Below are positions 241-14,132 of a DNA stretch of 14,630 nucleotides, piece after piece. The notes beneath the pieces are model-generated. The model did no database searches. It was given only the letters and a program-made list of their open reading frames with translations, and was not told the DNA's origin. This DNA comes from Pseudomonadota bacterium (GTDB lineage: Bacteria; Pseudomonadota; Gammaproteobacteria; Xanthomonadales; Rhodanobacteraceae): NCBI GenBank assembly GCA_021783385.1, contig JAJXTX010000038.1:1-14630 (forward strand), written 5' to 3'. A program made the position numbers and the translations under genes. The stretch's first letter is position 1, and each line of letters opens with the position of its first letter.

Positions 241-1608
241 CTACAGCTCGTAGCGCTTGAGCTTGTACCACAGCGCCCGCTCACTGATTTCCAGCAGCCG
301 TGCCGCCGCCGCCTTGTTGTTGTCGCTGCGCGCCAGCGCCGCTTCGATCAGCCGTTTTTCCAGTGCGTCGACGTGCGTGCGCAACGAGAGTGCGTCGGTG
401 CCGACGGACATGCTCGGCTCCGGCTCCGTCGCCGGCTGACGCTCGCGCAGCATGTTCGCGGGAAAGTGCTGCAAGGTGATCTCCTGCCCCTCACTGAGCA
501 CCATCGCCCGTTCCATCAGGTTTTCCAGCTCGCGCACGTTACCCGGCCAGCCATGCGCTTCGAGCCGCTCCAGCACCTGCCGCGTCAGCCGCGGTGGCGG
601 GCGGCCGAGTTCGCTGGCGTATTTGCCGAGGAAATGCTGCGCCAGCAGCGCGATGTCCTCGCGCCGGTCACGCAGCAGGGGCACGTCGATACGCACCACA
701 TTCAGCCGGAAATAAAGATCCTGGCGCAACCGTCCCGATTCCACCGCTTGCTGCAGATCCACATTGGTAGCCGCCACGATCCGCAGATCGACCGGCATCG
801 TCACGTTCGCTCCCAGCCGCTCGATGGTGCCCTCCTGCACCACGCGCAGCAGCTTGGCCTGCAGCGCCAGCGGCATCTCGGTGATCTCGTCCAGGAAAAT
901 GGTGCCGCCGCTGGCCAGCTCGCATTTGCCCACGCGGCCGCGGGCGGCGCCGGTGAAGGCGCCCTTTTCGTGCCCGAACAGTTCGCTCTCCAGCAGCTCG
1001 GCGGGAATCGCGGCACAGTTGATCGGCACAAACAATCCGCTGCGGCCGGAAGCGTGATGCAGGGCGCGCGCCACCAGTTCCTTGCCGGTACCGGTCTCGC
1101 CGACGATGAAAACGTTGCTGCGCGCCGGCGCCACCTGCTGCACCAGCCGATACAGCGCCTGCATTTTCTCGCTGACCCCGATGAACTCGCCCCAGCCCCG
1201 CGATACCTCATCGCGCAGGAAGCGGTTTTCGCGCTGCACCACGCTGACCGCGAGGGTGCGTGTCACCGCCAGCTCGATCGTCTCGATCTCGAACGGCCGG
1301 ATGATGTAGTCCGACGCGCCGAGCCGCATCGCCTCCACCGCGGTCTCGATCGTGCCGTAAGCGGTCAGCACGATCACCGGCACCTCCTCGCCACGCTCAC
1401 GCAACTCGCGCAGCAGTTGCATGCCGTCCATCCGCGGCATGCGCAGATCGGTCAGCACCAGATCGAAGCGGGTGGCATCGATGGCGGCCAGCGCCTCCAC
1501 TCCGTCCGCGGCCTGCACCACCTCATGGCCCATGCTGCCGAGCGCCAGCTCCAGGATCTGGCGCATCCTTGCCTCGTTGTCGACCACCAGCATTCGCTTC
1601 ACTTGCAC
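241..1608 (-). CDS. NtrC-family sigma-54-dependent response regulator
   Basis: Phosphorylation-controlled activator of sigma-54 RNA polymerase, 455 aa from the GTG at 1608. Domain order: receiver (about 1-120; acidic pocket D10/E12, phospho-acceptor D54 in LVLTDLRMP, T82), AAA+ domain (about 140-365; Walker A GETGTGKE at 170-177, GAFTGA sigma-54 contact loop at 216-221, Walker B IFLDE ending at 241) and a C-terminal Fis-type helix-turn-helix (last 40 residues, NNKAAAARLLEISERALWYKLK). The usually invariant receiver lysine is arginine here (R104 in DYIIRPF). The GTG at 1608 follows the kinase TGA by one base. GTG 1602, six bases after a GGTGAGG-like ribosome site, or ATG 1593 are equally plausible starts and change little. 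It is co-transcribed with the kinase and is the obvious candidate activator for the sigma-54 promoter at 12347-12331 (inference). Confidence 0.93.
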   Translation of the reverse strand: MQVKRMLVVDNEARMRQILELALGSMGHEVVQAADGVEALAAIDATRFDLVLTDLRMPRMDGMQLLRELRERGEEVPVIVLTAYGTIETAVEAMRLGASDYIIRPFEIETIELAVTRTLAVSVVQRENRFLRDEVSRGWGEFIGVSEKMQALYRLVQQVAPARSNVFIVGETGTGKELVARALHHASGRSGLFVPINCAAIPAELLESELFGHEKGAFTGAARGRVGKCELASGGTIFLDEITEMPLALQAKLLRVVQEGTIERLGANVTMPVDLRIVAATNVDLQQAVESGRLRQDLYFRLNVVRIDVPLLRDRREDIALLAQHFLGKYASELGRPPPRLTRQVLERLEAHGWPGNVRELENLMERAMVLSEGQEITLQHFPANMLRERQPATEPEPSMSVGTDALSLRTHVDALEKRLIEAALARSDNNKAAAARLLEISERALWYKLKRYEL

Positions 1609-1609
1609 C

Positions 1610-3376
1610 TCACCCAGCTAAATTCATGTCAAGACGGATGTTGAACGCCGCGCCGCCCCAGGGGCTGTCGGTGACGAAAATCTCGCCGCCGTGCGCCTGC
1701 ACGATCTGCTGCACGATGGTCAGTCCGAGACCGATACCCCCCTGGCGGCGCGTGAAGAACGGATCGAAGATCAGCTCGCGGATCGCCGGCGGAACGCCGG
1801 GCCCGTCATCAGCCACGGAAAGCCACAGCGCGCCCGCTTCCAGGTAGGTACTTACCGCAACCCTGCCGCCGCTGCTGACAAACTCCAGCGCGTTCAGCAC
1901 CAGATTGAGCAGCACCTGCATCATCTGTTCGCGATCGCAGGCGAACACCACGCCCTGCGCCTCCAGATCCCGCTCCAGATGCACGCCGGCGACCTCGGCC
2001 CGTGACGCGATCAGGTTGAGTACGCTGTCGACGATGGCATGCATGTCCTGCGGACGAAAATCCGGCGACTTCGGCCGGGCGCATTCCAGCAGCATGTTCA
2101 CCAGCGGATTGAGCCGTTCGGTCTCGCTCAGGATGAATCCGATCAGTTCGCGCTCGCGCTCACCGAGCGTGGTGTGACGGGCCAGCAGCTGCGCCGAACT
2201 GCGCACGATGCTCATCGGCGTACGGATCTCGTGCACCATCACCGCCGCCATCTCGCCCACCACCGCAAGTTTGCCGGCGCGCACCACCTGCTCGCGCGAG
2301 CGATCCAGCACCTGGATCATGTCGACGTAGGCGCGAAACAGCTCTGTGACCTCGGTTATCGTGGTGACCGGCGCGCTCGGCAGGGTCTCATCACCCTGGC
2401 GGAAGCGCCGCGTGAATTCGGTCAGGTCGACGATCGGTTTCGCGATGCGGCCGGCCAGTCTCGACGCCAGCCACAGACCCAGCGCCAGCGTCAGCAGCAG
2501 CACCACCAGCATGCCCCACAGCATGCGCCAGACCGGGCGAAACGCCTCGCTGGTCCGCTCGATCATCAGAATATGCCAGCCCAGCCCTTTGAACTGCGGG
2601 TCGCCGCTGGAGGCAGCGGCACCGACCAGCAGCGAGCGGTAGCCGAGAGCGGCGCCATCATGGATATACGAAGTCACGCCGACCGCGGGTACGGCCCAGT
2701 GCAGCATGCGCTGATGGGGCAGGCGCAGGCGTTCACGCAGCGCGCTCGATGCGGCGATCACCCGGCCCTGCGCGTCCAGCAGCAGCAGGCTGCGCGGCCC
2801 GTCGGCGGCGGCCTTGTCGAGCAACCCCTGCACGGCGCCCCAGTCCACCGTCAGATACAGCATGCCAAGGTTGCCGCGGCCAAACGCGTTGGGGATCAGC
2901 GTGCGCAAAACCACCGCCTCACCGCCGGGCTGGTAGCTGGTCGCGATGAACACGTCCTTCAGCTTTGAATCGGGCATCTGCTGCCAGGCGCGGATCGAGG
3001 GCGCCATTTTTCCGATCAGTGCACGATCTGTCGCCGCCACCACGCGGCCGGAAGTGTCGGTGCACAGCAGGGTCTGGTAGATGCTGCCCTGGCCTGCCTG
3101 CAGCTCGGACAGAAAGTTGGAAATACGCTTGTCGACGTCGTTGACACGGATGTCCTGCATCACCTGCAGGTTGCGCCAGACCCGCATGCTTTCCATCTGC
3201 GTGAACAGGAACGTATCGATGCGCTCCTTCACCGCGCCGGCGCCGAACTGGAGATTGTCGGCAATCTCCGACTGCAGGGCGCGGCGAAACTCGACAAACG
3301 ACAGCGCCCCCATCACGGCGATGGAGCCGAGCAGCATCCAGAAGAACGCACGCAGCAGGGCCGAGCGAGCCGTCAC
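1610..3376 (-). CDS. Membrane sensor histidine kinase with periplasmic Cache-like domain
   Basis: Inner-membrane kinase, 588 aa, that should phosphorylate the response regulator encoded directly after it (stop and next GTG are one base apart). Layout: transmembrane helix about 8-28; a periplasmic region about 30-280 that looks like a double Cache (PAS-fold) sensor, with repeated DxxGRVxAA elements; second transmembrane helix about 284-306; HAMP about 303-360; HisKA with phospho-acceptor H382 (VHEIRTPMS); HATPase with N495, G1 box DDGPGVP at 523-529, F box FDPFFT at 537-542 and G2 box GGIGLGL at 546-552. All catalytic boxes look intact. The start is a GTG with a weak ribosome site; ATG codon 14 would cut the first helix, so GTG is preferred. 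The ligand is unknown; Cache domains commonly bind small molecules such as organic acids or amino acids. About 210 bases separate it from the upstream dehydrogenase gene, so it probably has its own promoter. Confidence 0.92.
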   Translation of the reverse strand: MTARSALLRAFFWMLLGSIAVMGALSFVEFRRALQSEIADNLQFGAGAVKERIDTFLFTQMESMRVWRNLQVMQDIRVNDVDKRISNFLSELQAGQGSIYQTLLCTDTSGRVVAATDRALIGKMAPSIRAWQQMPDSKLKDVFIATSYQPGGEAVVLRTLIPNAFGRGNLGMLYLTVDWGAVQGLLDKAAADGPRSLLLLDAQGRVIAASSALRERLRLPHQRMLHWAVPAVGVTSYIHDGAALGYRSLLVGAAASSGDPQFKGLGWHILMIERTSEAFRPVWRMLWGMLVVLLLTLALGLWLASRLAGRIAKPIVDLTEFTRRFRQGDETLPSAPVTTITEVTELFRAYVDMIQVLDRSREQVVRAGKLAVVGEMAAVMVHEIRTPMSIVRSSAQLLARHTTLGERERELIGFILSETERLNPLVNMLLECARPKSPDFRPQDMHAIVDSVLNLIASRAEVAGVHLERDLEAQGVVFACDREQMMQVLLNLVLNALEFVSSGGRVAVSTYLEAGALWLSVADDGPGVPPAIRELIFDPFFTRRQGGIGLGLTIVQQIVQAHGGEIFVTDSPWGGAAFNIRLDMNLAG

Positions 3377-3512
3377 GCCGCGGGTCCGCTGCTGGCAGCA
3401 TGGCTATGCATGTGCACGACCTGGTCAGCGCTGATTCTCGTGCACACCGCGAGGGATCCGATCCAGCCAATCGCTGCTGCGTTCAAGGTAGGGCCGCGCG
3501 CGGCGCCGCGTG

Positions 3513-3527
3513 TGAACAATTTGTTCA
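3513..3527. promoter_or_regulatory. Perfect AT-rich palindrome, candidate operator
   Basis: TGAACAA-T-TTGTTCA is a perfect inverted repeat with 7-base arms around one base. It lies in the 208-base gap between the dehydrogenase stop and the kinase GTG, about 140 bases upstream of the kinase. Its symmetry and AT-rich composition in GC-rich surroundings suggest a dimeric repressor or activator site controlling the kinase-regulator pair. One or two such palindromes are expected by chance in this length of sequence, so only its intergenic position raises its value. I found no convincing -35/-10 or -24/-12 promoter beside it. Confidence 0.35.
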
Positions 3528-3536
3528 ATCAGAGCC

Positions 3537-3555
3537 CACCGGGTCGTGCCCGGTG
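3537..3555 (-). terminator. Hairpin after the dehydrogenase gene, possible terminator
   Basis: CACCGGG-TCGTG-CCCGGTG forms a perfect 7-base-pair, GC-rich stem with a 5-base loop, about 30 bases past the UDP-glucose dehydrogenase stop. No run of T follows on the minus strand, so it is not a classical intrinsic terminator. It could stabilise the 3' end of the long glycan mRNA, weakly separate it from the kinase genes, or be chance. Confidence 0.25.
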
Positions 3556-3584
3556 CGCACGCTGCGCGACCAGTACCGGGCGGA

Positions 3585-4994
3585 TCAGGACAGAGGCAGC
3601 GGCTGCGCGCCGCCCAGCGCACCCGGCTGGCGCATCGCAGCCGCCTGGCGCAGCGGCAGTGGATGCAACCGCGGCACCGGGTGGACCGCAGGTCGCCCGA
3701 TCGAGTGATAGGAAAGTCCGGCGCACTGCATCGCCTCCGCATCGAAGATATTGCGCAGATCCACCACCAGCTTGCCACGCATTACCGTGTGCAGCCATGC
3801 GGGCGAAATGCTGCGGAAGGCGTCCCATTCGGTGACCACCACCAGCACATCGGCGCCGTCGACGGCCTCGATCACGTCGCGGCAGTACTGCACGCTCTCG
3901 GGCAGCAGCGGGCGCGCCTGCGCCATGCCGACCGGATCGAACGCGCGCACGTGTGCGCCCTCCGCCAGCAGACGATCCACAATGCTCAGTGCGGGGGCAT
4001 CGCGCATGTCGTCCGTATCCGGCTTGAAGGTGAGGCCGAGCAGGGCGATCTGCTTGCCGCGCACCGATCCGCCGCAGTTTGCGATGATCCGCCCGGCCAT
4101 GCCCGCCTTGCGCGCATCGTTCACGCTCACCACCGTTTCCACCAGCCGCAGCGGCGCGCCCGCCTCCTGCGCAATCCGCATCAGCGCCTGCGTGTCCTTG
4201 GGGAAACACGAGCCGCCGTAGCCCGGACCGGGCTCGAGGAATTTCGGCCCGATCCGGCGATCCAGGCCAATACCGTGGCCGACGTCACGCACGTTGGCAC
4301 CGACCTTTTCGCACAGATCCGCCATCTCGTTGATGAAGGTTATCTTCATCGCCAGGAACGCGTTGGCTGCGTACTTGATCAGCTCGGCGCTCTCCAGTCC
4401 GGTGAACCGCAGCGCGTCCGCGGGCAGCTGCAGCGGACGGTAGATTTCGCCGAGCACCGCGCGCGCCCGCGCACTCTCGGTACCGATGACCACGCGATCG
4501 GGCCGCATGAAGTCCTCGATCGCGTTGCCCTCGCGCAGAAACTCGGGGTTGGATGCGATCTCGATGTGCAGATCCGGCCGCAGTTCCAGCATCCGCTCCG
4601 CCAGCCGGCGTCCGGTGCCTACCGGCACGGTGGACTTGGTGACCAGCACGACCGGGCTGTCCAGCGCAGCCGCAACCTGCTCGGCGGCGCTGAACACGTG
4701 GGTCAGATCCGCGTGCCCGTCACCGCGTCGCGACGGCGTGCCGACGGCCAGGAACACCGCATCGACGCCGTGCAGCGCGCTCTGCAGCTGGTTGTCGAAA
4801 CGCAGCCGGCCGGCCTGGATGTTGGCGCTCACCAGCGCCTCGAGGCCGGGCTCGTAAATCGGCATGCGCCCCTGGCATAGCGCCGCATAGCGCCGAGGAT
4901 CGGATTCGACAATCACGATGTCGTTGCCGATGTCGGCCAGGCAGGCGCCCGAGACCAGGCCTACATAGCCACCACCGATCATTGCAATGCGCAT
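3585..4994 (-). CDS. ugd: UDP-glucose 6-dehydrogenase
   Basis: Cytoplasmic NAD-dependent enzyme that oxidises UDP-glucose twice to UDP-glucuronate, a donor or precursor for acidic surface sugars; 469 aa. N-terminal Rossmann motif GGGYVGL at 7-13; NPEFLREG at 149-156; substrate-site ELIKYAAN with K207 and N211; catalytic C263 in GPGYGGSCFPKD; C-terminal UDP-binding domain with GLTFKPDTDDMRDAP around 320-334. All expected catalytic residues are present. A proline- and leucine-rich tail of about 34 residues follows SIGRP (431-435), with no domain I recognise. ATG 4994 is supported by a GAGGAGC ribosome site at 5008-5002. The start overlaps the end of the phosphatase gene by 16 bases, implying translational coupling. 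It is the last gene of the glycan operon. A UDP-N-acetyl-sugar dehydrogenase of the same superfamily is possible but less likely from these motifs. Confidence 0.93.
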   Translation of the reverse strand: MRIAMIGGGYVGLVSGACLADIGNDIVIVESDPRRYAALCQGRMPIYEPGLEALVSANIQAGRLRFDNQLQSALHGVDAVFLAVGTPSRRGDGHADLTHVFSAAEQVAAALDSPVVLVTKSTVPVGTGRRLAERMLELRPDLHIEIASNPEFLREGNAIEDFMRPDRVVIGTESARARAVLGEIYRPLQLPADALRFTGLESAELIKYAANAFLAMKITFINEMADLCEKVGANVRDVGHGIGLDRRIGPKFLEPGPGYGGSCFPKDTQALMRIAQEAGAPLRLVETVVSVNDARKAGMAGRIIANCGGSVRGKQIALLGLTFKPDTDDMRDAPALSIVDRLLAEGAHVRAFDPVGMAQARPLLPESVQYCRDVIEAVDGADVLVVVTEWDAFRSISPAWLHTVMRGKLVVDLRNIFDAEAMQCAGLSYHSIGRPAVHPVPRLHPLPLRQAAAMRQPGALGGAQPLPLS

Positions 4995-5614
4995 GGTTTT
5001 TGCTCCTCAAGTTGGGTTGAATGGCTGCTGTTTCCGTGACGCCGGTGCAGCGTCAACGCGTGCAGCGAACCGGTGGCCACGGGGATGTTCCGGAACATGC
5101 CCAGCGGCATCCCGGCGGCCTCCAGCAGCGCGATGCGAATCGGCCCGGCGTGGCTGACGATCAGCACGCTGCCATCGTGCGCCGTCCATTCCGGGTCCTG
5201 CAGAAACTGCTGCAAGCGCTGGCGCAGGTCGGCGAGACTCTCGCCGCCCGGCAGCGCCGCGGTATCCGGCACGCGCTTCCACTGACGCAGCTGATCTGGC
5301 CAGCGCGCGCGCACCTCGGCCTGGGTCAGCCCCTCCCACGCGCCGTAGGCCAGCTCGATCAACCGCGCGTCGACCCGCGGGGCGTCCAGCCCCAGCGTGG
5401 CGGCCACAATCTCGGCGGTCTCGCGGGCGCGGCGCAGCGGGCTGCTCAGAATCGAGCGCACGCCCTGCCCGCGTGCGCGCATGCCGATCTGCAGCGCCTG
5501 CGCGCGGCCCTCGTCGATCAGCGGGGGATCGCAGCGACCCTGATAGCGCCCGCTGCGGCTCCACTCGGTCTGCCCGTGGCGCGCCAGCAACAGCGGAATG
5601 CTCGCATCCGTCAT
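4979..5614 (-). CDS. Histidine phosphatase superfamily protein (phosphoglycerate-mutase-like)
   Basis: Branch-1 histidine phosphatase, 211 aa, predicted cytoplasmic (no signal peptide). The phosphohistidine motif is LARHGQTEW with H13; a SSPLRRARET segment at 57-66 supplies phosphate-binding arginines; E87 in LIELAYGAWEG is the probable acid; the second histidine is H155 in VSHAGP. The family includes phosphoglycerate mutases, CobC and sugar-phosphate phosphatases such as glucosyl-3-phosphoglycerate phosphatase, and sequence alone does not settle the substrate. I chose ATG 5614 because the family motif begins nine residues later and it lies 5 bases after the outer-membrane gene stop; an upstream in-frame extension to 5713 would run back into that gene. 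It overlaps the dehydrogenase by 16 bases. Its place among glycosyltransferases suggests a phosphorylated sugar or lipid-linked intermediate as substrate (inference). Confidence 0.87.
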   Translation of the reverse strand: MTDASIPLLLARHGQTEWSRSGRYQGRCDPPLIDEGRAQALQIGMRARGQGVRSILSSPLRRARETAEIVAATLGLDAPRVDARLIELAYGAWEGLTQAEVRARWPDQLRQWKRVPDTAALPGGESLADLRQRLQQFLQDPEWTAHDGSVLIVSHAGPIRIALLEAAGMPLGMFRNIPVATGSLHALTLHRRHGNSSHSTQLEEQKPCALQ

Positions 5615-5619
5615 GGCGC

Positions 5620-6477
5620 TCAATAGTGCACGGCAAGGCCGAGGACGATGCGCCGGCCGGCATGGATGCCCTTGCCGGCGAGCGAGTCTTCGTAGCCGAT
5701 GAACGGACGCCACTGGCGCAAGCGACCGGCGGGCAGATATTCCAGCTTCGCGCCCACCCGCAGCAGGTTGTAGATTTCGCCGCGGTCGGCCAGGGCTACC
5801 ACCTGCTGACGCTGCAACGTGCGCACGTAGAACACCGAGCCGCTGACCCGGAACCGCGGCGCCACCCGGTAGCCGAGCGAGAGCGAGCTGCGCAGCTGCA
5901 CGGCGCCCCCGTCAAGAAACACGCGCGGCCCGGCCATCAGCGTCGCAAACATCGCACCGCGGGCGATACCGACCTGGTAGTCCGGTTCGATCGCCGCCTT
6001 GCCCGAGCCCAGCGCTGGCGACTGGCTGGTGGAGCCGGTCGGCAAGACCGCGTTGAGGGTAATCGAGTCGGCGAAGGACTGGGTCTGACGCAGCCCGTAG
6101 TTCAAACCGATCACCTGGTCTTCCAGGCCGCTGGCACGGCTGACGACCTGCTGGCCGGCGTGATGACGGGTGTCCTGCACAGCGCCGCCGCGCAGGTCGT
6201 ACTCGATCGAGAGGCCGTGGCCGATGCCCTGCGAACCGTTGATGCGCAGCTGCGTCTCGCGTTGCTGCGAGGACGGATAGGTACTGCTGCCGAAATGCGT
6301 CGGCGAAAATGCGTGGTTGGCGCTGAAGTAGCGCAGCATCGGATCGACGACGCCGTGACCCGCGGCCGGGATCCACGGATCGGCGTGGGCTGGTCGCGTG
6401 CTGGCGGCGAACAACACCAGCGCGCACGCGCACGGGAGGAGACGCATGGTGCGGGCAGCGTTGCCGGCAGAATTCAT
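5620..6477 (-). CDS. Outer-membrane beta-barrel protein, Phenol_MetA_deg-like
   Basis: Predicted exported outer-membrane barrel, 285 aa. A hydrophobic signal segment (about 12-28) is followed by an AHA cleavage site at 30-32. The mature protein is rich in alternating beta-strand-like stretches with glycine and aromatic residues and ends in an aromatic residue (VHY). The LNAVLPTGS...LGSGKAAIEPDYQVGIARG segment resembles the loosely defined 'MetA-pathway of phenol degradation' barrel family (PF13557), a family name that says little about function. The ATG at 6477 overlaps the ABC exporter stop (ATGA). A second ATG at 6447 would give a shorter, more typical signal peptide; I cannot decide between them. 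Position between an inner-membrane exporter and glycan enzymes suggests a role in passing or anchoring the product at the outer membrane (inference). Confidence 0.75.
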   Translation of the reverse strand: MNSAGNAARTMRLLPCACALVLFAASTRPAHADPWIPAAGHGVVDPMLRYFSANHAFSPTHFGSSTYPSSQQRETQLRINGSQGIGHGLSIEYDLRGGAVQDTRHHAGQQVVSRASGLEDQVIGLNYGLRQTQSFADSITLNAVLPTGSTSQSPALGSGKAAIEPDYQVGIARGAMFATLMAGPRVFLDGGAVQLRSSLSLGYRVAPRFRVSGSVFYVRTLQRQQVVALADRGEIYNLLRVGAKLEYLPAGRLRQWRPFIGYEDSLAGKGIHAGRRIVLGLAVHY

Positions 6478-8288
6478 GGGGCGACCATTCGGAGTTTGGG
6501 AGAGGGGGTGTCGTCACGCAGTGCCTGCCACAGGCTGGCGTACAGCCCGCCCGTCGCCAGCAGCTGCGCATGAGTGCCGCGCTGGACGATGCGTCCACGT
6601 TCCAGCACCAGGATCAGGTCAGCATTCATCACCGTCGAGAGCCGGTGTGCGATCACCAGCGCCGCGCGACGCGAGGCCAGCCGCGCCAGCGCCAGCATCA
6701 GCTCGCGCTCGGTGCGCGCATCCAGGCTGCTGCTAGGCTCATCCAGAATCACCACCGGCGCATCGCACAGCATCGCCCGCGCAATCGCGATGCACTGCCG
6801 CTGCCCGCCGGAGAGGCTGAGCCCGCGCTCGCTGACCATGCCGTCGTAGCCGCCGGGCAGCTGCTCGATCAACTGATCGACGCCGACCTCGCGCGCCGCA
6901 CGCACCGCATCCGCGCGCTGGGCGCCCTCGCGGCCGTAGGCGATGTTTTCCCAGATCGTTGCCTGGAACAGTGCGGGCTCCTGCAGCACCATCGCCACCT
7001 GCCGGCGCAGATAGTTCAGCGGCAGGCTGCGCAGATCGCGATCGTCCAGCCGTATCGATCCGGCGGTGGGGTCGTAGAAGCGCGGTATCAGGCTGGCGAT
7101 GGTGCTCTTGCCCGCGCCGGTGGGGCCGACCAGCGCGATCGTCTTGCCCGCCTCCAGCACGAAGCTGATGTCCTGCAGGATGGGCTGGTCGGGCCGGTAG
7201 CCGAACCCGACTTCCGCAAATTCGAGCCGTTGCGCCCGTGCGGGCGGCGCGCTGGTGCCCTCGGGGTCGACCACGCTGGGCGTTTCCGCGCGGTATTCGC
7301 CGATCCGCTCCAGCGCCACGCCGGCGCGGCCGATCACCCGGCCGGTCTTCGCCAGCTGGCGCGCGGGCGTGGCGATGCCGCGCAGATACGCCAGGAAAAT
7401 CAGCAGATCGCCCGGCGTCAGCGCGCCGCGGATCACGCTGGCCGCGCCGTACCAGATGATCGCCCCGGTGGCGACCGCGATCACCAGGTTCATGCTCGGG
7501 CCATAGCGCGCCTGCACGCGGTTGGCATGCAGGCTGGCGGTGAGGCTCTTGCTGGCGTGCTCGCTGAAGCGATCGTCCTCGTGCGACTCGCGCGCAAACG
7601 CCTGCACCACCTGCACGCTGGCGAGGATTTCCTGCGTCACGCCCCACAGCGTGCCCTCATGGTTTCGCACCTCGCGCAGCGCCTGCCGCAGCCGCTGCGA
7701 GTAGAAGCGCGCGATGTAGAACAGCACCGGCGCGATCGCCAGCGCGATCAGCGCGTAGCGCCAGTCGATCACGATCATCACGCAGGCCATGCCCAGGATG
7801 GTCAGCGCATGCGGCAGCAGATCGATGCCGACGGCAGCGACGAAGTCCTGCAGCTGCTTCACATCGCCACTGAGCCGCGACATCAGTTCGCCGCCGCGAT
7901 GGCGGCGATGGAATTCCAGCGACAGCCGCTGCAGGTGGGCGAACAGGTCGAAGCGGATGGCGAACACCACGCGCTGCCCGGCGTCCAGAAACAGCCGGTT
8001 GCCGAGATAGACCAGCAGGGCATCGGCCGCACCCAGGGCCAGCATCACCAGCGCCAGCAGGTTCAGCAGCGGCATGCGCTGCTGCGCGATTGCCGGCAGC
8101 ATGGCGTGCAGCCAGCCCGGCAGCGGCCGGCCGAAGATCACGTTGTCAATGGTGTATTTGAGCGGCCACGGCAGCAGCAGCAGCACCACCGCCCGCACGC
8201 TCATCACCAGTGCGCCGGCGGACAGCGCTTTCCACTCCGGCCACAGATAATCAAGCAGCCACGCGTGCGGGCGCGCGCGCCGCACCAT
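6474..8288 (-). CDS. MsbA-like ABC exporter (fused membrane and ATPase domains)
   Basis: Type IV half-transporter, 604 aa, expected to act as a homodimer in the inner membrane. The N-terminal about 320 residues carry the hydrophobic helices of an exporter membrane domain (with a GELMSRLSGDV coupling-region motif near 133-143). The ATPase domain follows: Walker A GPTGAGKST from 388, Q-loop VLQEPALF, signature LSGGQ at 492-496, Walker B VVILDEP with catalytic E517, and H548 in IAHRLST. All ATP-hydrolysis motifs are intact. ATG 8288 overlaps the stop of the upstream glycosyltransferase in a TGATG junction and is preferred over GTG 8309. Relatives move lipid A, lipid-linked oligosaccharides, peptides or drugs. 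Flanking glycosyltransferases argue for a glycolipid or lipid-linked glycan substrate (inference). Confidence 0.9.
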   Translation of the reverse strand: MVRRARPHAWLLDYLWPEWKALSAGALVMSVRAVVLLLLPWPLKYTIDNVIFGRPLPGWLHAMLPAIAQQRMPLLNLLALVMLALGAADALLVYLGNRLFLDAGQRVVFAIRFDLFAHLQRLSLEFHRRHRGGELMSRLSGDVKQLQDFVAAVGIDLLPHALTILGMACVMIVIDWRYALIALAIAPVLFYIARFYSQRLRQALREVRNHEGTLWGVTQEILASVQVVQAFARESHEDDRFSEHASKSLTASLHANRVQARYGPSMNLVIAVATGAIIWYGAASVIRGALTPGDLLIFLAYLRGIATPARQLAKTGRVIGRAGVALERIGEYRAETPSVVDPEGTSAPPARAQRLEFAEVGFGYRPDQPILQDISFVLEAGKTIALVGPTGAGKSTIASLIPRFYDPTAGSIRLDDRDLRSLPLNYLRRQVAMVLQEPALFQATIWENIAYGREGAQRADAVRAAREVGVDQLIEQLPGGYDGMVSERGLSLSGGQRQCIAIARAMLCDAPVVILDEPSSSLDARTERELMLALARLASRRAALVIAHRLSTVMNADLILVLERGRIVQRGTHAQLLATGGLYASLWQALRDDTPSPKLRMVAP

Positions 8289-9541
8289 CACTGCGCCACC
8301 GCCCGGCACACCGCGGGCGCGTGCGCCAGCGACAGCGCCTGTTCAACCACGTTCGCCCAGCTGTGGCTGGCCGCGGCGAGCTCGGCGGCACGCCCCATCT
8401 GACGGCGATGCTCGGGCGCATCGATCAGCTCCAGCAGCGCCAACGCACACGCGACCTGATCACCTGGCGCATACAGCCGTCCGCTGGTCTGATCCTCGAT
8501 CAGCTCGGCAATCTGGCCGATGCGCGGCGCAACGACCGGGCAGCCGGCCGCCATCGACTCGACGATTTTCATCGGCGAGAAATAGAAATCCGGATCCGGC
8601 AGGTACGGCGCAACGCTGACGTCCATCGCATCGAGCCAGGCCGGAATCTCGGCGTGCGGCACCCGCCCGGGCAGACTGACCTGGCGCTGCAGGCCCCACT
8701 CGGCAACGCGGCTGCGGATGGCCTCCAGTTCCGGGCCGTCACCGACGGCGAGCAGCCGCAGCTCGGGCCGGATCTCCACCAGCGCCCGGAACACTTCGAG
8801 CAGAAACATCATGCCGTGCCACGGCTTGAAGCTGCCGACGAAACCCAGCACCGGACTGCCGCCCAGCCCCAGCTGCGCGCGCAGCACGCTGCCGCCCTGG
8901 TGTTTGCCGAAGCGCGCCAGATCCACCCCGTTGGGCATGACGTGCACCGTCTGCTGGCTGCCGAGGATGTCGCCGACATGCTCGGCCACCGCCGCGGATA
9001 CCGCCACGATCGCATCCGCACCGCGATAGGACTCCACTTCCGCCGCGCGCGACTCGCGTTCCAGCCGCAGCCCGCGAAAGCGCCGCTGCTCTTCGACCAG
9101 CGGCGCGTTCACCTCAAGCAGGCGTGGCACGCCGAGCCGGCGCGCCACGCGCACGCCGGCCCGATGCAGCAGGGCGTGGCGTTCGTACACCAGGTCGGGC
9201 CGGAAGCCGCTGCTGCCGAGATGGCCGAGCACGCGCGCGGCGAAGGTTCGGTCATAAGCCAGCCGCGAGATCTCGCGACGCAGGGCCAGATCGGACAGCG
9301 CGGACACCGGCAACCCCAGCTCGATGCACGCCGCATGCAGCTCCGCGTCGGTGACGCTGTATTCGATGCACGCGATGCGCGCCGGCGGCGGCGGATTGCC
9401 GCTGCCAAGCGTGGCGCAGGCCAGCAACACCTCATGGCCGAGTTCGGCCGCCGCCGTGATGAATTCGCGCACATGCACCGAGGCACCCTTGTCGCCGAGT
9501 ACCGGGATACCCCGGTCGGGATTCATGTAGAGGATTTTCAT
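8288..9541 (-). CDS. Glycosyltransferase, GT4-type (GT-B fold)
   Basis: Cytoplasmic or membrane-associated sugar transferase, 417 aa. The N-terminal acceptor domain opens with MKILYMNP and a GDKGASVHVREF loop (16-27), typical of GT4 enzymes. The C-terminal donor domain has MPNGVD at 202-207, GFVGSFKPWHG at 233-243, VGDGP at 266-270 and the nucleotide-sugar E-x7-E region SPMKIVESMAAGCPVVAPR, with E328 and E346 as candidate key glutamates. ATG 9541 shares ATGA with the stop of the previous gene and starts exactly at the conserved first strand; the longer in-frame start at 9613 adds only a basic, unconserved stretch. The donor and acceptor cannot be told from sequence. It is followed by the ABC exporter with a one-base overlap. 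Confidence 0.9.
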   Translation of the reverse strand: MKILYMNPDRGIPVLGDKGASVHVREFITAAAELGHEVLLACATLGSGNPPPPARIACIEYSVTDAELHAACIELGLPVSALSDLALRREISRLAYDRTFAARVLGHLGSSGFRPDLVYERHALLHRAGVRVARRLGVPRLLEVNAPLVEEQRRFRGLRLERESRAAEVESYRGADAIVAVSAAVAEHVGDILGSQQTVHVMPNGVDLARFGKHQGGSVLRAQLGLGGSPVLGFVGSFKPWHGMMFLLEVFRALVEIRPELRLLAVGDGPELEAIRSRVAEWGLQRQVSLPGRVPHAEIPAWLDAMDVSVAPYLPDPDFYFSPMKIVESMAAGCPVVAPRIGQIAELIEDQTSGRLYAPGDQVACALALLELIDAPEHRRQMGRAAELAAASHSWANVVEQALSLAHAPAVCRAVAQ

Positions 9542-10857
9542 GAGGCGACCTCGACGTTGGTCGTTGGGTATTCGGCGGCGGCAGCGGCTGGCTGAGCGCT
9601 TACTTCGCCGCACTCATGACATCCGATCAGTGCATGCAGACGGCGCGTCGTGGTCCACAGGTCGAAGTCCTGCTCCAGCCGAGCGCGCGCCGCGCGCGCC
9701 AATTGCGTCGCCGCGTGTGGATCAGCCAGCAGCTGGCCAAGCGCATCGGCCATGGCACTCGGATCATTCGGCGGCGCGAGCATTCCGGTGCGCCCAGGCT
9801 GGACCAGCTCCGGTATGCCGGACACATCCGTCGACACCACCGGGATGCCAATGGCCATCGCCTCGGCGATCACATTCGGAATACCGTCACGGTCGCCGTC
9901 GTCGGCTATGCGCGGCGCCAGCGCAAACAGGTCGGCGTGACGGTACAGCGCGATCAGCTTCGAATGCGTCATCGCACCCTCCAGCGTCACCATGCCCTCC
10001 AGCTGCAGCTCTGCGATCTGCGCCGCGAGAGCGCCGCGCAGCGGGCCTTCGCCGACGATCATGCAACGGAAGGAGTGACCGCGCCCGCGCAGGAGCGCAC
10101 AGGCGGTGATCAGGTCATCATGGCCCTTCTTCTCCACCAGCCGGCCCACGGAAAGTATCAGCCGAGGCTGGGGTTGCGCAGCGGGCTGCGGCGCTTCGCG
10201 CACGCCGAACTGCGACAGGTCGATGCCGTGATAGACCAGATGCACCTTGCCGGCATCGGCACCGAGCAGATCCTCCAGGTAGCGCGCGTTGTAGCCGGTG
10301 CAGGTGGCGACAAAGGTGGCCGCGCGCGCGCGCCGCTGGATCACCCGCGGCGGGGTCAGGTACAGATCCTTGGCATGCGCAGTGAAGCTGAAGGGAATGC
10401 CGGACATCAGGCTGGCGAAGCGCGCCGTTGCCGCCGGCGCATTGGCGAAATGCGCGTGGATGTGGCGGATGCCCATGCGACGGCAGGAACTCGCCACATA
10501 GCCGCCGCGACCGAACTGCTTCCACACCGACAGCGGGCTGGGCGAGAGTACCGACCACAGCATCGCGCGCAGCACCGCACCCGCATAGCGCAGCGGCGAG
10601 GCGGCCAGCATGCGGCCGTGCGCGCGGGCCAGGCCGGCCCACTTGGCGCGACCTTGCGGCGGCAGCGAGTGGATCGGCGCGACCACTTCGCTCACCATCG
10701 GGTGATGTGGCGGCGGCTCCGGCGGCAGCAGCGAAAAGATATGCAGCTGCGCACCCAGCCGCTCCATCGCGCGGATCTCGTTGAGGATGAAGGTCTCGGT
10801 GAGGCGCGGATAGCGCTTCATCACGTAGGCAATTGGTCCTGCCGCATGGTCGATCAT
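9538..10857 (-). CDS. Glycosyltransferase, GT4-type, colanic-acid WcaL/AmsK-like
   Basis: GT-B fold transferase, 439 aa. The N-terminus has the YVMKRYPRLTETFILNEI pattern (11-28) seen in exopolysaccharide transferases of the WcaL/AmsK group. Further features are HIHAHFANAPA at 132-142, FTAHAKDLY at 158-166, SVGRLVEKKG at 236-245, VGEGP at 268-272 and the donor-site segment DGIPNVIAEAMAIGIPVVSTDVSGIPE with E332 and E350. Length and motif order fit a complete enzyme; the last 25 residues form an alanine-rich tail. The ATG overlaps the stop of the first glycosyltransferase by 4 bases (ATGA), and its own stop overlaps the next start the same way, so all three transferases are translationally coupled. 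The sugar specificity is unknown. Confidence 0.9.
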   Translation of the reverse strand: MIDHAAGPIAYVMKRYPRLTETFILNEIRAMERLGAQLHIFSLLPPEPPPHHPMVSEVVAPIHSLPPQGRAKWAGLARAHGRMLAASPLRYAGAVLRAMLWSVLSPSPLSVWKQFGRGGYVASSCRRMGIRHIHAHFANAPAATARFASLMSGIPFSFTAHAKDLYLTPPRVIQRRARAATFVATCTGYNARYLEDLLGADAGKVHLVYHGIDLSQFGVREAPQPAAQPQPRLILSVGRLVEKKGHDDLITACALLRGRGHSFRCMIVGEGPLRGALAAQIAELQLEGMVTLEGAMTHSKLIALYRHADLFALAPRIADDGDRDGIPNVIAEAMAIGIPVVSTDVSGIPELVQPGRTGMLAPPNDPSAMADALGQLLADPHAATQLARAARARLEQDFDLWTTTRRLHALIGCHECGEVSAQPAAAAAEYPTTNVEVAS

Positions 10858-12293
10858 GCCCGGCGCTCCAGCGAGGCTGTCGGCATGCAGGCGCGCTCCA
10901 GCAGGTACTGCGCGACGCGCTCGGCGCCATCCAGGTCGATCACCGCAGCGGCGGACTCCAGCGGCGGTGGCGCGGCCAGCGCGGCGGGAATCAGCGCGGC
11001 GAGATTCTGCACCAGTTGCGCATCGGGCTCGACGCTCCAGACGGCGCCAAGCTTCGCCAGCAGGCTGGCGCGCATGCGCTGCTCCGCCCGCGGCGCGGCG
11101 CGCGGCACCAGGATCGCGCGCTTGCGCAGAGCCATGATTTCGGCGCTGGTGTTGTATCCCGCCATCGCCACCACCAGGTCGGCCGCGCGCAGGCTGGGCA
11201 CCAGATCGGTCGTGTAGTCGACCAGCTCGACATCCGCCCGACCGGCGGCGCGCTGGCGCAAGGCGTCGCTCTCGTCGCCGGGCATCAGCGGCCCGGTGAC
11301 CACCACCGAATGCACGCTGCCCTGCGGCAGCTGCGCCAGCGCCTGCAGGTAGGCGTCCATCAGGAAGAAGCCGTCGCCACCGCCGCCGGCGGTGACCAGC
11401 ACCACCGGACGTCCCTGCGGGCGACGCGGACTCCAGCAGGGCTGCGCCTGTACCGCGCCGGCGGGTCGGGCATGCGCTGCTGGGGCTGCCACCACGTGGC
11501 CGCAGTAGCGCACGCGCGCACCGAGCGCGGGCGACATGCCGTAACCTTCGACCACGTCGAACAGCGCCCGGCTGCCATAGACGAAGATATCGTCATAGGC
11601 CTGCTCCAGCAGCGGATAGATCTCCTGCTCGCGCCACAGCTTTTGCACGGTGGCCGGGCTGTCGAGGATATCGCGCAGTCCAATGATGGTCCGCGTCTGC
11701 GGAAGCTCCCGGCGAATCAGCGCCAGCGTCGAAAGCAGTTCTCCGTTCATGCCGGCGGGGGCATGGTCGACCAGGAACACATCCGGCCGGTAGCGCAGGA
11801 TGGTCTTGAGAATCAGCGCTTCGCGGTAGCCCTTGACCATCCCGAACAGCTGCTCGCCATCGCGCGCGGCGTACTGTTCGGCGCCGGTTTTGACCACCGG
11901 TGGCAGCGGTTGAACCTGCAGACCGGGCGGAAGATTCCACTGCCCGATGACCGGCGAACCAGTCAGCAGTCGAACCGAAAACCTGCCGTCGCACTCCAGC
12001 AGGCGCGTGGCGATGGCGAGGTTGCGGCGCAGATGGCCGAGCCCGAACGTGTCGTGGGAATACAGCACCACCCGCAGGCTGCCGCCCGAGCGGTCGGCCC
12101 GCGCAACGAGCGTCTGTCCGCGTCCAGCGGCGCTGTCGGCAGGTTCCGCATGGCTCGCCGCGATCATCCGGCGCAGCGGCGCTGCGCTCTCGGTCTGCGT
12201 GCGCAGCAGGCCGTGGGTTGGCGTGGGCAAGCGCGGCGACATGCCATCCGCCAGGCATGTATCGGCGCCGAAACTTGTTGCATGACCAGGCAT
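10854..12293 (-). CDS. MurG-like predicted glycosyltransferase (COG4671 type)
   Basis: First gene of the glycan operon, 479 aa from ATG 12293. About 70 N-terminal residues look disordered. The GT-B fold then begins with LRVVLYSHDTFGLGHLRRN (SHDTFGLGH at 79-87, the MurG-like GxGH-type acceptor loop). The donor domain has VTAGGGGDG around 300-308, a GYNTSAEIMAL element at 379-389 and a following P...EQ segment, as in MurG/UGT-type enzymes. I chose ATG 12293 because GGAG sits six bases upstream (12303-12300) and because the sigma-54 promoter predicts transcription from about 12321. The in-frame ATG at 12329 would lie upstream of that transcript's 5' end. The sugar and acceptor are unknown; COG4671 is, to my knowledge, named only as a predicted glycosyltransferase. 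Confidence 0.88.
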   Translation of the reverse strand: MPGHATSFGADTCLADGMSPRLPTPTHGLLRTQTESAAPLRRMIAASHAEPADSAAGRGQTLVARADRSGGSLRVVLYSHDTFGLGHLRRNLAIATRLLECDGRFSVRLLTGSPVIGQWNLPPGLQVQPLPPVVKTGAEQYAARDGEQLFGMVKGYREALILKTILRYRPDVFLVDHAPAGMNGELLSTLALIRRELPQTRTIIGLRDILDSPATVQKLWREQEIYPLLEQAYDDIFVYGSRALFDVVEGYGMSPALGARVRYCGHVVAAPAAHARPAGAVQAQPCWSPRRPQGRPVVLVTAGGGGDGFFLMDAYLQALAQLPQGSVHSVVVTGPLMPGDESDALRQRAAGRADVELVDYTTDLVPSLRAADLVVAMAGYNTSAEIMALRKRAILVPRAAPRAEQRMRASLLAKLGAVWSVEPDAQLVQNLAALIPAALAAPPPLESAAAVIDLDGAERVAQYLLERACMPTASLERRA

Positions 12294-12330: not shown

Positions 12331-12347
12331 AAGCGATATTCGTGCCA
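12331..12347 (-). promoter_or_regulatory. Sigma-54 (-24/-12) promoter of the glycan operon
   Basis: Read on the minus strand this is TTGGCACG-AATA-TCGCT. The -24 element is a full match to the TTGGCACG consensus, and the -12 element differs from TTGCW by one base. GG (12346-12345) and GC (12334-12333) are separated by exactly ten bases, the spacing sigma-54 requires. Transcription would start near 12321, giving a leader of about 28 bases, then GGAG and the ATG at 12293. The sigma-54 activator gene in the same window supports it. Confidence 0.8.
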
Positions 12348-12413: not shown

Positions 12414-12503
12414 GTTGCAGGCTGCAGGGATTGTCTGCCAACGATTGCGGGGTCGCTGCGCTCCTGGACCCAGGCGCGACCACGGCGCAGAGAGGGCTGT
12501 GGA

Positions 12504-13019
12504 TCAACGCACCGGGCGCCTCGGACAGGCTGCGGCAGGCGGCAGGGATGCCGCTGCGGGGAGCGTCAGCATCTGCACGGCATGGACGTCTGCGGTGACG
12601 AAGCAAGGTTCCACATAGCCGATGGCGCCGGGCGTCTTGGCCACGAATTCCACCACCGCCGCCTCGGACCCGAGCACGAAGGGCGGGCTGACGCCCTGGA
12701 AGTACTGCTGATTCCAATAGTTCTGCAACCGCCGTTCGCTCATGCCGATAGCAGCGCGGGAAAAGGCCTGCCGCAGCCTGCTCTCCGGCGGCAGATTGAC
12801 CGGAATGTAGGCGTGCCCGTGCGGGTCGACGAAGACCTTCTTCAGATAGATGTTGCGCAGCGTCCCCGGATCAACCGTCTGCACGCCGTGATCGCGGCTC
12901 GACACGATGACCGCGATTCTCGATTCGCCTGCCTGTGCCGCCATCGCGCAGCGCGCGCCGGTCCCCGCGACGACCAGGACGCCGAGCACGACCAGCCAGC
13001 GAGTGAAGGTTGATGGCAT
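12504..13019 (-). CDS. Small PstS-like periplasmic substrate-binding protein
   Basis: Exported phosphate-binding-protein-like domain, 171 aa, roughly half the length of a true PstS. A signal peptide (hydrophobic about 8-20, probable cleavage near AMA at 25-27) precedes the domain. The IAVIVSSRDHGVQTVDPGTLRNIYLKK start, the R-rich ESRLRQAFSRAAIGMSERRLQNYWNQQYF centre and VVEFVAKTPGAIGYVEP near the end are the pattern of short PBP-like_2 family members. The GAIGYVE motif is typical of phosphate-binding proteins. C24 is not in a good lipobox, so a soluble periplasmic protein is more likely than a lipoprotein. It begins 3 bases after the porin stop, forming a two-gene operon. No pstCAB permease genes are in the window, so transport via the usual Pst system cannot be assumed. 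Confidence 0.8.
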   Translation of the reverse strand: MPSTFTRWLVVLGVLVVAGTGARCAMAAQAGESRIAVIVSSRDHGVQTVDPGTLRNIYLKKVFVDPHGHAYIPVNLPPESRLRQAFSRAAIGMSERRLQNYWNQQYFQGVSPPFVLGSEAAVVEFVAKTPGAIGYVEPCFVTADVHAVQMLTLPAAASLPPAAACPRRPVR

Positions 13020-13022
13020 GGT

Positions 13023-14132
13023 TCAGAACAGCACACCGATCGAGGCCAGCACGCCGTTCGGCGCCAGCGCGGCATTGTTGTTTCCCTCACGGTATTCGAG
13101 CTTGAGCGACATGCCGGATTCGGGCCGGTAGTCGATGCCGAATGTCCTCAGGGTCACCCACTGGCTGGGCAGCGAATTCCGGTACCGCTCATAGCGTGCC
13201 ACGGCATACAGGTGCCGCGGCAGCGGAACAACCGCCTGCACATACCCGCCATATTCATCCGGAACCTGGGGGCTGTCCGCCGTGCGCCAGATGCCCTCGC
13301 CACTGAATTCGACGCGACGGCCTGACCATCCGAAGTCGATACCGGTGAGTCGGTACTGCTGCCGGGGGGTTTTCAGGGCATAACGCACATAAGACGCACC
13401 CAGGCTCAGACGGTCATCCAGCATGTGATACAGAAATTGACCTCCAACGGCATGCTGAAAATCATTCCTCAGCGTGCTGCTGGCACCATAGTCTGTGAAG
13501 GCCAGATTGTGGCTGCGCGTGAAGGCGAGCGCTTTGCTGTCATCCGCGAACAGCCAGTAATCGAGATCGTTCTGCCTGAGGTTGACGGTGCCGTACAGCA
13601 TGGCGCCGCTGGCATGGCGCGAGAAACTGCCCGTAGTGGTCAGTGGGCGCGACACGGTCCACACGAGGGGGTCGGCGTGCACCAGATTCCACTGCCCTAC
13701 CGGGGTGAGGAATTTGCCGAAGCGCAGCGTGATGCCGCTGCGGGTGTGATAGTCGGCGTAGAGCCGCTCGACATCGATATTGGCATCCTTGGTGGTGGCG
13801 TGCTGGCTGTCGATGACCAGCGCGTCGCCGAGTTCGGTTTCGCTGAAGAGCTTCCAGTGGGTGCCGATATCCCTGGACAGAAACAGGCTGAGGTCCTCGA
13901 CGCTGAGCGCCGCGCGGTGTTTGTCGAGGCTGTAGAAGTGAATGTCGGCATAGCCGCCGACCCGTAACGACTGTTGCGGAAAATACAGCCCCTGGCCCAG
14001 CTGGTAGGGCTGGGCTTGCCAGGATTCGTCCGCCGCAGCGGCACCTGCGGGCAGAATCCACGCCAGTACCGCAGCCAATCCCCACACCAGCAAATCGGCG
14101 TAATGCCGGTATCTGCGCCTCGGGTTGCTCAT
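13023..14132 (-). CDS. Outer-membrane porin-like beta-barrel protein
   Basis: Predicted outer-membrane channel, 369 aa. The basic N-terminus and hydrophobic stretch (about 14-30) form a signal peptide with likely cleavage after the alanine run ending at 34. The mature part shows many amphipathic beta-strand patterns (LRVGGYADIHFYS, WKLFSETELGDAL, ITLRFGKFLTPVGQWNLVHADP), as in uncharacterised porins related to the OprO/OprP or carbohydrate-type barrels. It ends in GVLF, with the C-terminal phenylalanine used for BAM recognition. A complete gene; ATG 14132 has only a weak ribosome site. It is co-transcribed with the small PstS-like gene, suggesting uptake or sensing of one solute, possibly an oxyanion such as phosphate (inference). 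Confidence 0.8.
   Translation of the reverse strand: MSNPRRRYRHYADLLVWGLAAVLAWILPAGAAAADESWQAQPYQLGQGLYFPQQSLRVGGYADIHFYSLDKHRAALSVEDLSLFLSRDIGTHWKLFSETELGDALVIDSQHATTKDANIDVERLYADYHTRSGITLRFGKFLTPVGQWNLVHADPLVWTVSRPLTTTGSFSRHASGAMLYGTVNLRQNDLDYWLFADDSKALAFTRSHNLAFTDYGASSTLRNDFQHAVGGQFLYHMLDDRLSLGASYVRYALKTPRQQYRLTGIDFGWSGRRVEFSGEGIWRTADSPQVPDEYGGYVQAVVPLPRHLYAVARYERYRNSLPSQWVTLRTFGIDYRPESGMSLKLEYREGNNNAALAPNGVLASIGVLF

Follow-up and report, generated by a model that had tools for sequence, protein, structure and literature searches.

The stretch of DNA analysed here (the window) is the whole of a 14,630-base contig, C258, from a draft genome (G000) of 2.83 Mb that is 79.8% complete. Its open reading frames include eleven complete genes, all on the minus strand, which in reading direction encode a porin-like protein, a small PstS-like protein, a MurG-like glycosyltransferase (GTM), two GT4-family glycosyltransferases (GT4a and GT4b), a fused ABC exporter (ABC), a probable outer-membrane beta-barrel (OMB), a histidine phosphatase (HPh), a UDP-glucose dehydrogenase-type protein (UGD), a sensor histidine kinase and an NtrC-type response regulator. 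The seven genes from GTM to UGD (3585-12293, minus strand) form the core with which this study is concerned. Each has an ATG start and a TGA stop, and their junctions consist of overlaps of 4, 4, 1, 4 and 16 bases and one 5-base gap, counted with the exporter starting at ATG 8288 (its longest open reading frame begins at GTG 8309). The open reading frames and family matches bear out an earlier note on this DNA, which had described seven genes coupled by overlaps of 1-16 bases or a 5-base gap. The core genes are as follows.

10854..12293, minus strand: GTM, MurG-like (COG4671-type, GT28-C) transferase, 479 amino acids; PF04101, E 8e-11
9538..10857, minus strand: GT4a, GT4 transferase, 439 amino acids, EpsE/WcaL-like; PF00534 (Glycos_transf_1), E 1e-36
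8288..9541, minus strand: GT4b, GT4 transferase, 417 amino acids; Glycos_transf_1; nearest model TIGR04063 (PEP-CTERM/XrtA), far below cut-off
6474..8309, minus strand: ABC, fused MsbA-like exporter; ABC_membrane and ABC_tran; start GTG 8309, with ATG 8288 equally possible
5620..6477, minus strand: OMB, probable outer-membrane beta-barrel, 285 amino acids, PF13557-like
4979..5614, minus strand: HPh, histidine phosphatase branch 1, 211 amino acids; PF00300, E 2e-56; RHG and SHAG motifs
3585..4994, minus strand: UGD, UDP-glucose 6-dehydrogenase-type, 469 amino acids; three Pfam domains; GGSCFPKD motif

An alignment of 27 GTM proteins was searched against one genome per species and gave at least 539 confirmed relatives. 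The best 80 of these loci were compared with the eleven proteins of the window, and same-strand neighbours were counted where the contig was long enough (testable loci). Set 1 contains 62 loci (L024-L085) with a best-segment GTM identity of at least 49%, and its hosts include Acidiphilium, Acidocella, Acidithiobacillus and acidobacterial metagenome-assembled genomes (MAGs). Set 2 contains 18 loci (L086-L103) labelled as Chloroflexi and related bacteria, Actinomycetes, Acidimicrobiaceae, Candidatus Dormiibacter, one member of Acidobacteriota and one of Cyanobacteria. GT4a, GT4b and ABC accompany GTM at every testable locus of set 1 (61/61, 57/57 and 51/51), followed by HPh (42/47), OMB (37/47) and UGD (33/44). 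The corresponding counts in set 2 are 16/18 for GT4a, 11/17 for GT4b, 13/15 for ABC, 6/12 for HPh, 9/14 for UGD and 0/11 for OMB, two of the eleven loci testable for OMB being those labelled Acidobacteriota and Cyanobacteria. Over both sets, GT4a, GT4b and ABC occur together in 58 of the 66 loci with room for them. The neighbour order is kept far above chance, and a reduced version of the core occurs in Chloroflexi and Actinomycetes MAGs. The earlier note had proposed a search for conserved co-occurrence and had named a gene order not conserved in related genomes as what would speak against it; the order proved to be widely kept, a breadth of distribution beyond what the note had described.

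The core genes also diverge together. Pairwise distances of GTM, GT4a, GT4b and ABC correlate with each other at r 0.90-0.93 over all loci used and at 0.84-0.89 up to L085, and OMB distances correlate with those of the same four at r 0.85-0.88. UGD (r 0.70-0.73) and HPh (r 0.51-0.60) track the four less closely up to L085.

Single loci show further features. The cyanobacterial locus (L102) has no partner genes by this count, and at L093 the core genes have no free reading frame between them. The match coordinates of L089 (Acidobacteriota) and L095 (Actinomycetes) are identical, and one of the two is therefore probably misbinned. At the Chloroflexi-type locus L099 (15779-18220), an APH phosphotransferase protein with a weak TCAD9 match lies directly behind the exporter. 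Epimerase-like neighbours were found in 22 loci, on both strands and at various distances; one such protein was typed as Pfam Epimerase, and three scanned in NCBIfam gave no model over its cut-off.

The COG4671 label of GTM comes from the earlier note and not from the searches made in this analysis. GTM was considered as the housekeeping MurG and rejected, scoring 35 bits against a cut-off of 250 for TIGR01133, and a separate murG over the cut-off is present in three of the four carriers of the genus (G005, G015 and G023), G000 having elsewhere only a partial murG match of 46 positions. A profile alignment (hhalign) of GTM with the true MurG of the congener G023 gave a probability of 88 and an E value of 3e-6 over residues 182-424 only, and the conserved Glu of the C-terminal donor domain of MurG is aligned in GTM. 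MurG acts on a membrane lipid substrate. GTM is probably a membrane-associated transferase and the first to act on the lipid. Its start at 12293 is supported by a second contig of the same draft genome, C257, since an in-frame stop lies there just upstream of the corresponding ATG. The nearest named relative of GTM is a protein (P0003) from a Rhodanobacter MAG with 90% identity, two further proteins being closer.

For GT4a the best NCBIfam model is EpsE (219 bits, cut-off 400). The usual motif of GT4 enzymes is E-x7-E, and when read by eye it is altered in both: GT4a gives no match, with D at the first place, and GT4b has SPMKIVE at the expected place.

The exporter carries Walker A and LSGGQ motifs. 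Its best NCBIfam models are of MsbA type (TIGR02203, 418 bits, cut-off 602), and among bacterial solved chains a lipid A-core flippase matches it best. A role as the housekeeping MsbA was rejected, as the protein is below the TIGR02203 cut-off and another gene in the same genome scores 717 bits. A separate true MsbA over the cut-off is present in all four carriers of the genus, in agreement with the view of an MsbA-like exporter distinct from the genome's own MsbA. The possibility that the core is an anti-phage system was also rejected: of the seven proteins PADLOC matched only the exporter, with five ATPase-type hits of weak to moderate strength.

The N-terminus of OMB looks like a leader when read by eye. 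No Pfam family was matched by the OMB of the window, and a PF13557 match was found in 9 of the 29 members of the OMB alignment, with E values up to 0.1. HPh has the RHG motif and the second catalytic His of histidine phosphatase branch 1, and the solved chains nearest to it include phosphoserine phosphatase 1 (2e-28) and glucosyl-3-phosphoglycerate phosphatase (2e-17). UGD has the three domains and the active-site Cys motif of the dehydrogenases and scores 428 bits with TIGR03026 (cut-off 190). With the UDP-glucose-specific TuaD model it reaches 486 bits, below the cut-off of 700; UDP-glucose is its predicted substrate. The 41 UGD proteins compared fall into five groups at an average distance of 0.48, one group being a single protein, and the gene follows HPh in some loci and ABC in others. 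The several groups and the variable position would fit repeated replacement of the supply gene.

We compared the core with known systems. Wzx/Wzy loci and ABC-2 routes (Wzm/Wzt, KpsMT) share with it the transferases and UGD. However, as the earlier note had remarked, no Wzx, Wzy, Wza, Wzc or Kps-type component was matched in Pfam or NCBIfam among the eleven complete genes of the window, and the exporter is a fused ABC_membrane-ABC_tran protein rather than the two-gene Wzm/Wzt or KpsM/KpsT of capsule and O-antigen export. MsbA (TIGR02203) is likewise a fused membrane and ATPase exporter of the same superfamily, but the core also occurs in Chloroflexi and Actinomycetes MAGs. The PglK-type flippases of lipid-linked oligosaccharides resemble the exporter in their proposed action and in standing beside several GT4 transferases, although the PglK model gives only 137 bits against a cut-off of 1000 and no oligosaccharyltransferase was recognised in the window. 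The likeness of GTM to MurG and GT28 lies in the C-terminal donor domain. By analogy, the locus appears to work most like a route to a small lipid-linked oligosaccharide or glycolipid. To our knowledge, the glucuronosyl-diacylglycerol pathways need no dedicated exporter, barrel or phosphatase in an operon. Uronate-bearing anionic glycolipids, such as those made in phosphate starvation, for example in Caulobacter (PMC6445935), would be the product class nearest to the one proposed here.

No characterised match to the operon was found among the papers listed in searches of an open-access library, which lacks most subscription papers, and the same holds for the match to a known polysaccharide locus that the earlier note had given as a ground for abandoning its proposal. 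Two papers on exopolysaccharide genes of acidophiles deal, in the parts seen, with general exopolysaccharide genes and not with this set (PMC7142476, PMC4725956). The enzyme families of the core are known ones; their combination is conserved, and no described pathway with it was found among those papers.

We suggest, with moderate confidence, that a short lipid-linked glycan is the product that the operon assembles and exports, and the similar interpretation in the earlier note is plausible and in part supported. The MurG donor domain of GTM, an exporter of the MsbA superfamily that is not MsbA, and a barrel found in set 1 only speak for a lipid-linked glycan that, once flipped, is dealt with at the outer membrane, and the presence of UGD argues for an acidic sugar. 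As read from the proteins, the substrates, the lipid acceptor and the order of the steps would be as follows. At the inner face, GTM would attach a sugar, either the first or the second, to a membrane lipid, and GT4a and GT4b would extend the glycan. UGD would supply UDP-glucuronate, making at least one sugar usually acidic, and in some relatives an epimerase-like neighbour may turn over UDP-glucuronate. The MsbA-like exporter would then flip the finished glycolipid, which in most of the carriers that have an outer membrane may be inserted into that membrane, or passed through it, by the small barrel. HPh might remove phosphate from a pathway intermediate or prevent a phosphorylated precursor from building up. 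In the organism of the window, an outside signal sensed by the kinase would lead sigma-54 and the NtrC-type regulator to start transcription; in other lineages the same core would stand beside other regulators.

Several points weigh against this interpretation. OMB was not found in 10 of the 47 testable loci of the set that bears an outer membrane, and a diverged barrel could have escaped tblastn at the eleven loci of set 2. UGD was not found in 11 of 44 testable set 1 loci. Together with the several sequence groups of UGD, this makes glucuronate, which the earlier note had given as a probable component and for which the UGD of the window speaks, likely but no fixed property of the product. 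Shared ancestry alone yields distance correlations such as those of the core proteins. HPh has no secure place in a lipid-linked glycan scheme, and over all solved structures the exporter matches best with eukaryotic ABCB proteins, which have many substrates. Among the eight recurrent-neighbour proteins typed, none was recognised as a priming phosphoglycosyl transferase or as the product of a lipid synthesis gene. Finally, Wzy_C-family proteins, which are polymerases or ligases, are encoded elsewhere in all four carriers of the genus, so that a polymer made in trans is possible.

This last point leads to a different view, which we consider rather unlikely, in which the product of the locus is the repeat unit of a capsule or exopolysaccharide. 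Like PglK, ABC would flip an oligosaccharide linked to undecaprenyl, and the units would be joined by a polymerase whose gene lies elsewhere. Besides the Wzy_C-family proteins, this view could draw on the nearness of GT4a to the exopolysaccharide EpsE/WcaL models and on Wza, which is present outside the locus in two of the four carriers (G005 and G023). A genome comparison also ties sigma-54 and its activators to envelope and exopolysaccharide genes (PMC3162934). However, a locus this well kept would be expected to include its own polymerase, and no polymerase, copolymerase or export channel was found in the window or among the eight neighbour proteins typed; a Wza (PF02563) match was also not found in G015 (99% complete) or G000 (79.8% complete).

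The likeness of HPh to phosphoserine phosphatase 1 and glucosyl-3-phosphoglycerate phosphatase, at the E values given above, would suit a soluble glycosylated secondary product or oligosaccharide exported by ABC. The barrel would then serve as the exit pore, since PF13557-like proteins may form channels, and HPh would remove a phosphorylated intermediate in the manner of glucosylglycerate-type pathways. We regard this as improbable: no scaffold-making gene was recognised, GTM aligns with the donor domain of the lipid-acting MurG, and the best NCBIfam exporter models are of MsbA type, although the ABCB-type scores leave the substrate unsettled. It has also been considered that the acceptor is a hopanoid, the locus making glycosylated bacteriohopanepolyols in acidophiles. 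Squalene-hopene cyclase was indeed over the cut-off in 8 of the 20 genomes tested (Acidiphilium, Acidocella, Acidithiobacillus, Rhodopila and one gammaproteobacterial locus), and a ninth, an Acidithiobacillus (L069), had two partial cyclase matches. But a cyclase match was found neither in the four carriers of the genus, two of them 99% complete, nor in the genomes of L052, L060, L093, L098 and L100, nor in the two non-carriers tested (G001 and G003). The cyclase was thus not found in every carrier, and we disfavour this acceptor as very improbable.

An exported lipid-linked glycan, if it proves true, would represent a common surface-glycan route missed by the standard scheme of Wzx/Wzy, ABC and synthase pathways. 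In Acidithiobacillus and Acidiphilium, an acidic surface glycan could influence how the cells tolerate acid, bind metals and attach to minerals. A barrel dedicated to a single exporter would also be relevant to the way in which glycolipids arrive at the outer membrane or pass through it. The conserved core, the finding of the barrel only in the proteobacterial and acidobacterial set and the existence of cultured carriers make the question testable.

The genes and sites flanking the core in the window are as follows.

13023..14132, minus strand: porin-like protein, 369 amino acids; weak Porin_O_P match (E 0.0015, 18.3 bits, cut-off 20.9)
12504..13019, minus strand: small PstS-like protein, 171 amino acids; weak TIGR02136 match (E 5e-4, 19 bits, cut-off 207)
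12422..12441, minus strand: candidate enhancer element, TTGCAGACAA-N4-TGCA-like, upstream of the promoter, read by eye
12332..12347, minus strand: sigma-54-like -24/-12 promoter TGGCACGAATATCGCT, 38 bases upstream of the GTM start codon; 11/12 consensus positions
1610..3376, minus strand: sensor histidine kinase; weak dCache and HAMP matches, below cut-off
241..1608, minus strand: NtrC-type sigma-54 response regulator; PF00158 (E 1e-67), PF00072 and PF02954; receiver, AAA+ and Fis domains; GAFTGA loop

The porin-like and PstS-like genes upstream and the kinase and regulator genes downstream accompany the core in the congeneric loci L025 and L026 and in L052. The operon unit is therefore larger than the earlier note had said, the porin-like and PstS-like genes and the sigma-54 regulatory part belonging to the cassette. 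The porin-like and PstS-like genes lie upstream of GTM in L025, L026, L052, L060, L072 and L076, the last four being the only compared loci outside the genus of the window to have them. No Pfam family was matched by the PstS-like protein. A phosphate-starvation glycolipid, to which these two neighbours might point, is one possible reading; both matches are weak. The kinase accompanies the operon in L021, L025, L026 and L052.

With its GG and GC, the -24/-12 site before GTM and the NtrC-type activator with GAFTGA predict a sigma-54-controlled operon. Taken alone, the promoter pattern in the window is not above chance (5 matches, 3.2 expected). However, sites with GG and GC scoring 9-12 of 12 are found at all seven distinct loci with the kinase-regulator pair (the window, L025, L026, L052, L060, L072 and L076), compared with 8 of 71 other loci, a group that includes some loci with other or partial regulator matches (Fisher 2e-6, or 7e-5 with L076 as a miss, its site having been found only on a rescan). 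Shuffles of the locus's own stretch reached the site score in 19 of 200 cases for L025 (9/12), in 7 of 200 for L026 and in none of 200 for L052, L060 and L072. The association of a putative sigma-54 promoter before GTM with a local NtrC-type pair is new here. An element like TTGCAGACAA was seen by eye upstream of GTM in the window, L003, L021, L025 and L026, and in weaker form in L052, L060, L072 and L076. In the window, a TTGTTCACAC-like sequence is present in the interval that separates UGD from the kinase gene (3377-3584); such a sequence also stands upstream of GTM in L052 and may be a site for a regulator.

Other upstream modules were typed on one representative per cluster. In 11 loci (L030, L036, L039, L041, L044, L045, L046, L049, L051, L053 and L083), the core has a TonB-receptor-type gene ahead of it, upstream of GTM on the same strand; 10 of these loci also have a FecR-type gene and 9 an ECF-sigma-type gene. 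The ECF sigma, FecR and TonB-receptor genes would form a cell-surface-signalling set ahead of the biosynthetic operon. Opposite-strand genes for DUF6502 (13 loci) and DUF5666 (9 loci) were also found upstream.

Carriage is patchy: 4 of 45 genomes in the genus of the window, its own included (G000, G005, G015 and G023), 7 of 17 in the genus of L074 (an Acidithiobacillus), 22 of 299 genomes drawn in the family of Acidiphilium rubrum, and 9 of 369 drawn in the class (E 1e-60), where only two genomes other than that of the window are above 50% identity. This pattern fits a cassette that moves. The protein end upstream of the porin-like gene carries a motif that we take to be that of SecA. Such a neighbour occurs, among the loci compared, only in the window and the sister contig C257 and not in the congeneric L022/L025 and L023/L026, which are long enough; this difference between congeneric loci again fits a moving cassette. 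The genera Acidiphilium, Acidocella, Acidithiobacillus and Rhodopila are acidophiles, and they account for 14 of the 17 genus-named loci in L024-L085. We take an enrichment in acidic habitats as a lead only, since no background rate was measurable.

A more speculative idea, which we think possible but doubtful, is that one mobile cassette makes an undescribed class of surface glycolipid common to one- and two-membrane bacteria, mostly in acidic, metal-rich places. The transferases and flippase would be its fixed part, the barrel would usually be gained where an outer membrane exists, and the sugar-acid supply gene and the regulator (sigma-54 two-component, ECF/FecR/TonB receptor or others) would be swapped.

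More distant relatives keep parts of the core. The class-level stretches L128 (57%) and L129 (52%) have the core with OMB, HPh and UGD. Among six class-level loci at 34-39% GTM identity (L130-L135), all but L133 have a GT4a-like gene close to GTM; GT4a, GT4b and ABC are retained on the same strand in L130 and L134, L131 has GT4a-like genes and an ABC gene 3 kb on, and L132 and L135 have a GT4a-like gene and an HPh-like gene on the opposite strand with only weak ABC matches. On plasmids no close relative was found, all 275 plasmid records with a match being below 60% identity. A GT4a-like gene lies near the GTM relative in the plasmid loci L104, L106 and L107, and the annotation of L105 shows no such neighbour. 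In L104 (a Sulfitobacter dubius plasmid, 7649-18160) and L107 (a Shinella plasmid), the distant GTM relatives lie near genes annotated as GT4, nucleotide sugar dehydrogenase and deacetylase, and also near an importer gene set and an ABC protein of 900-1034 amino acids. L104 has a histidine phosphatase too, and its ABC protein has a cyclic-nucleotide-binding domain. The contig C257 (L003, 1-14656) is about 92% identical to nearly the whole window and has nearly the same ends; it is probably due to the presence in the bin of a second strain or species, and not to a duplication.

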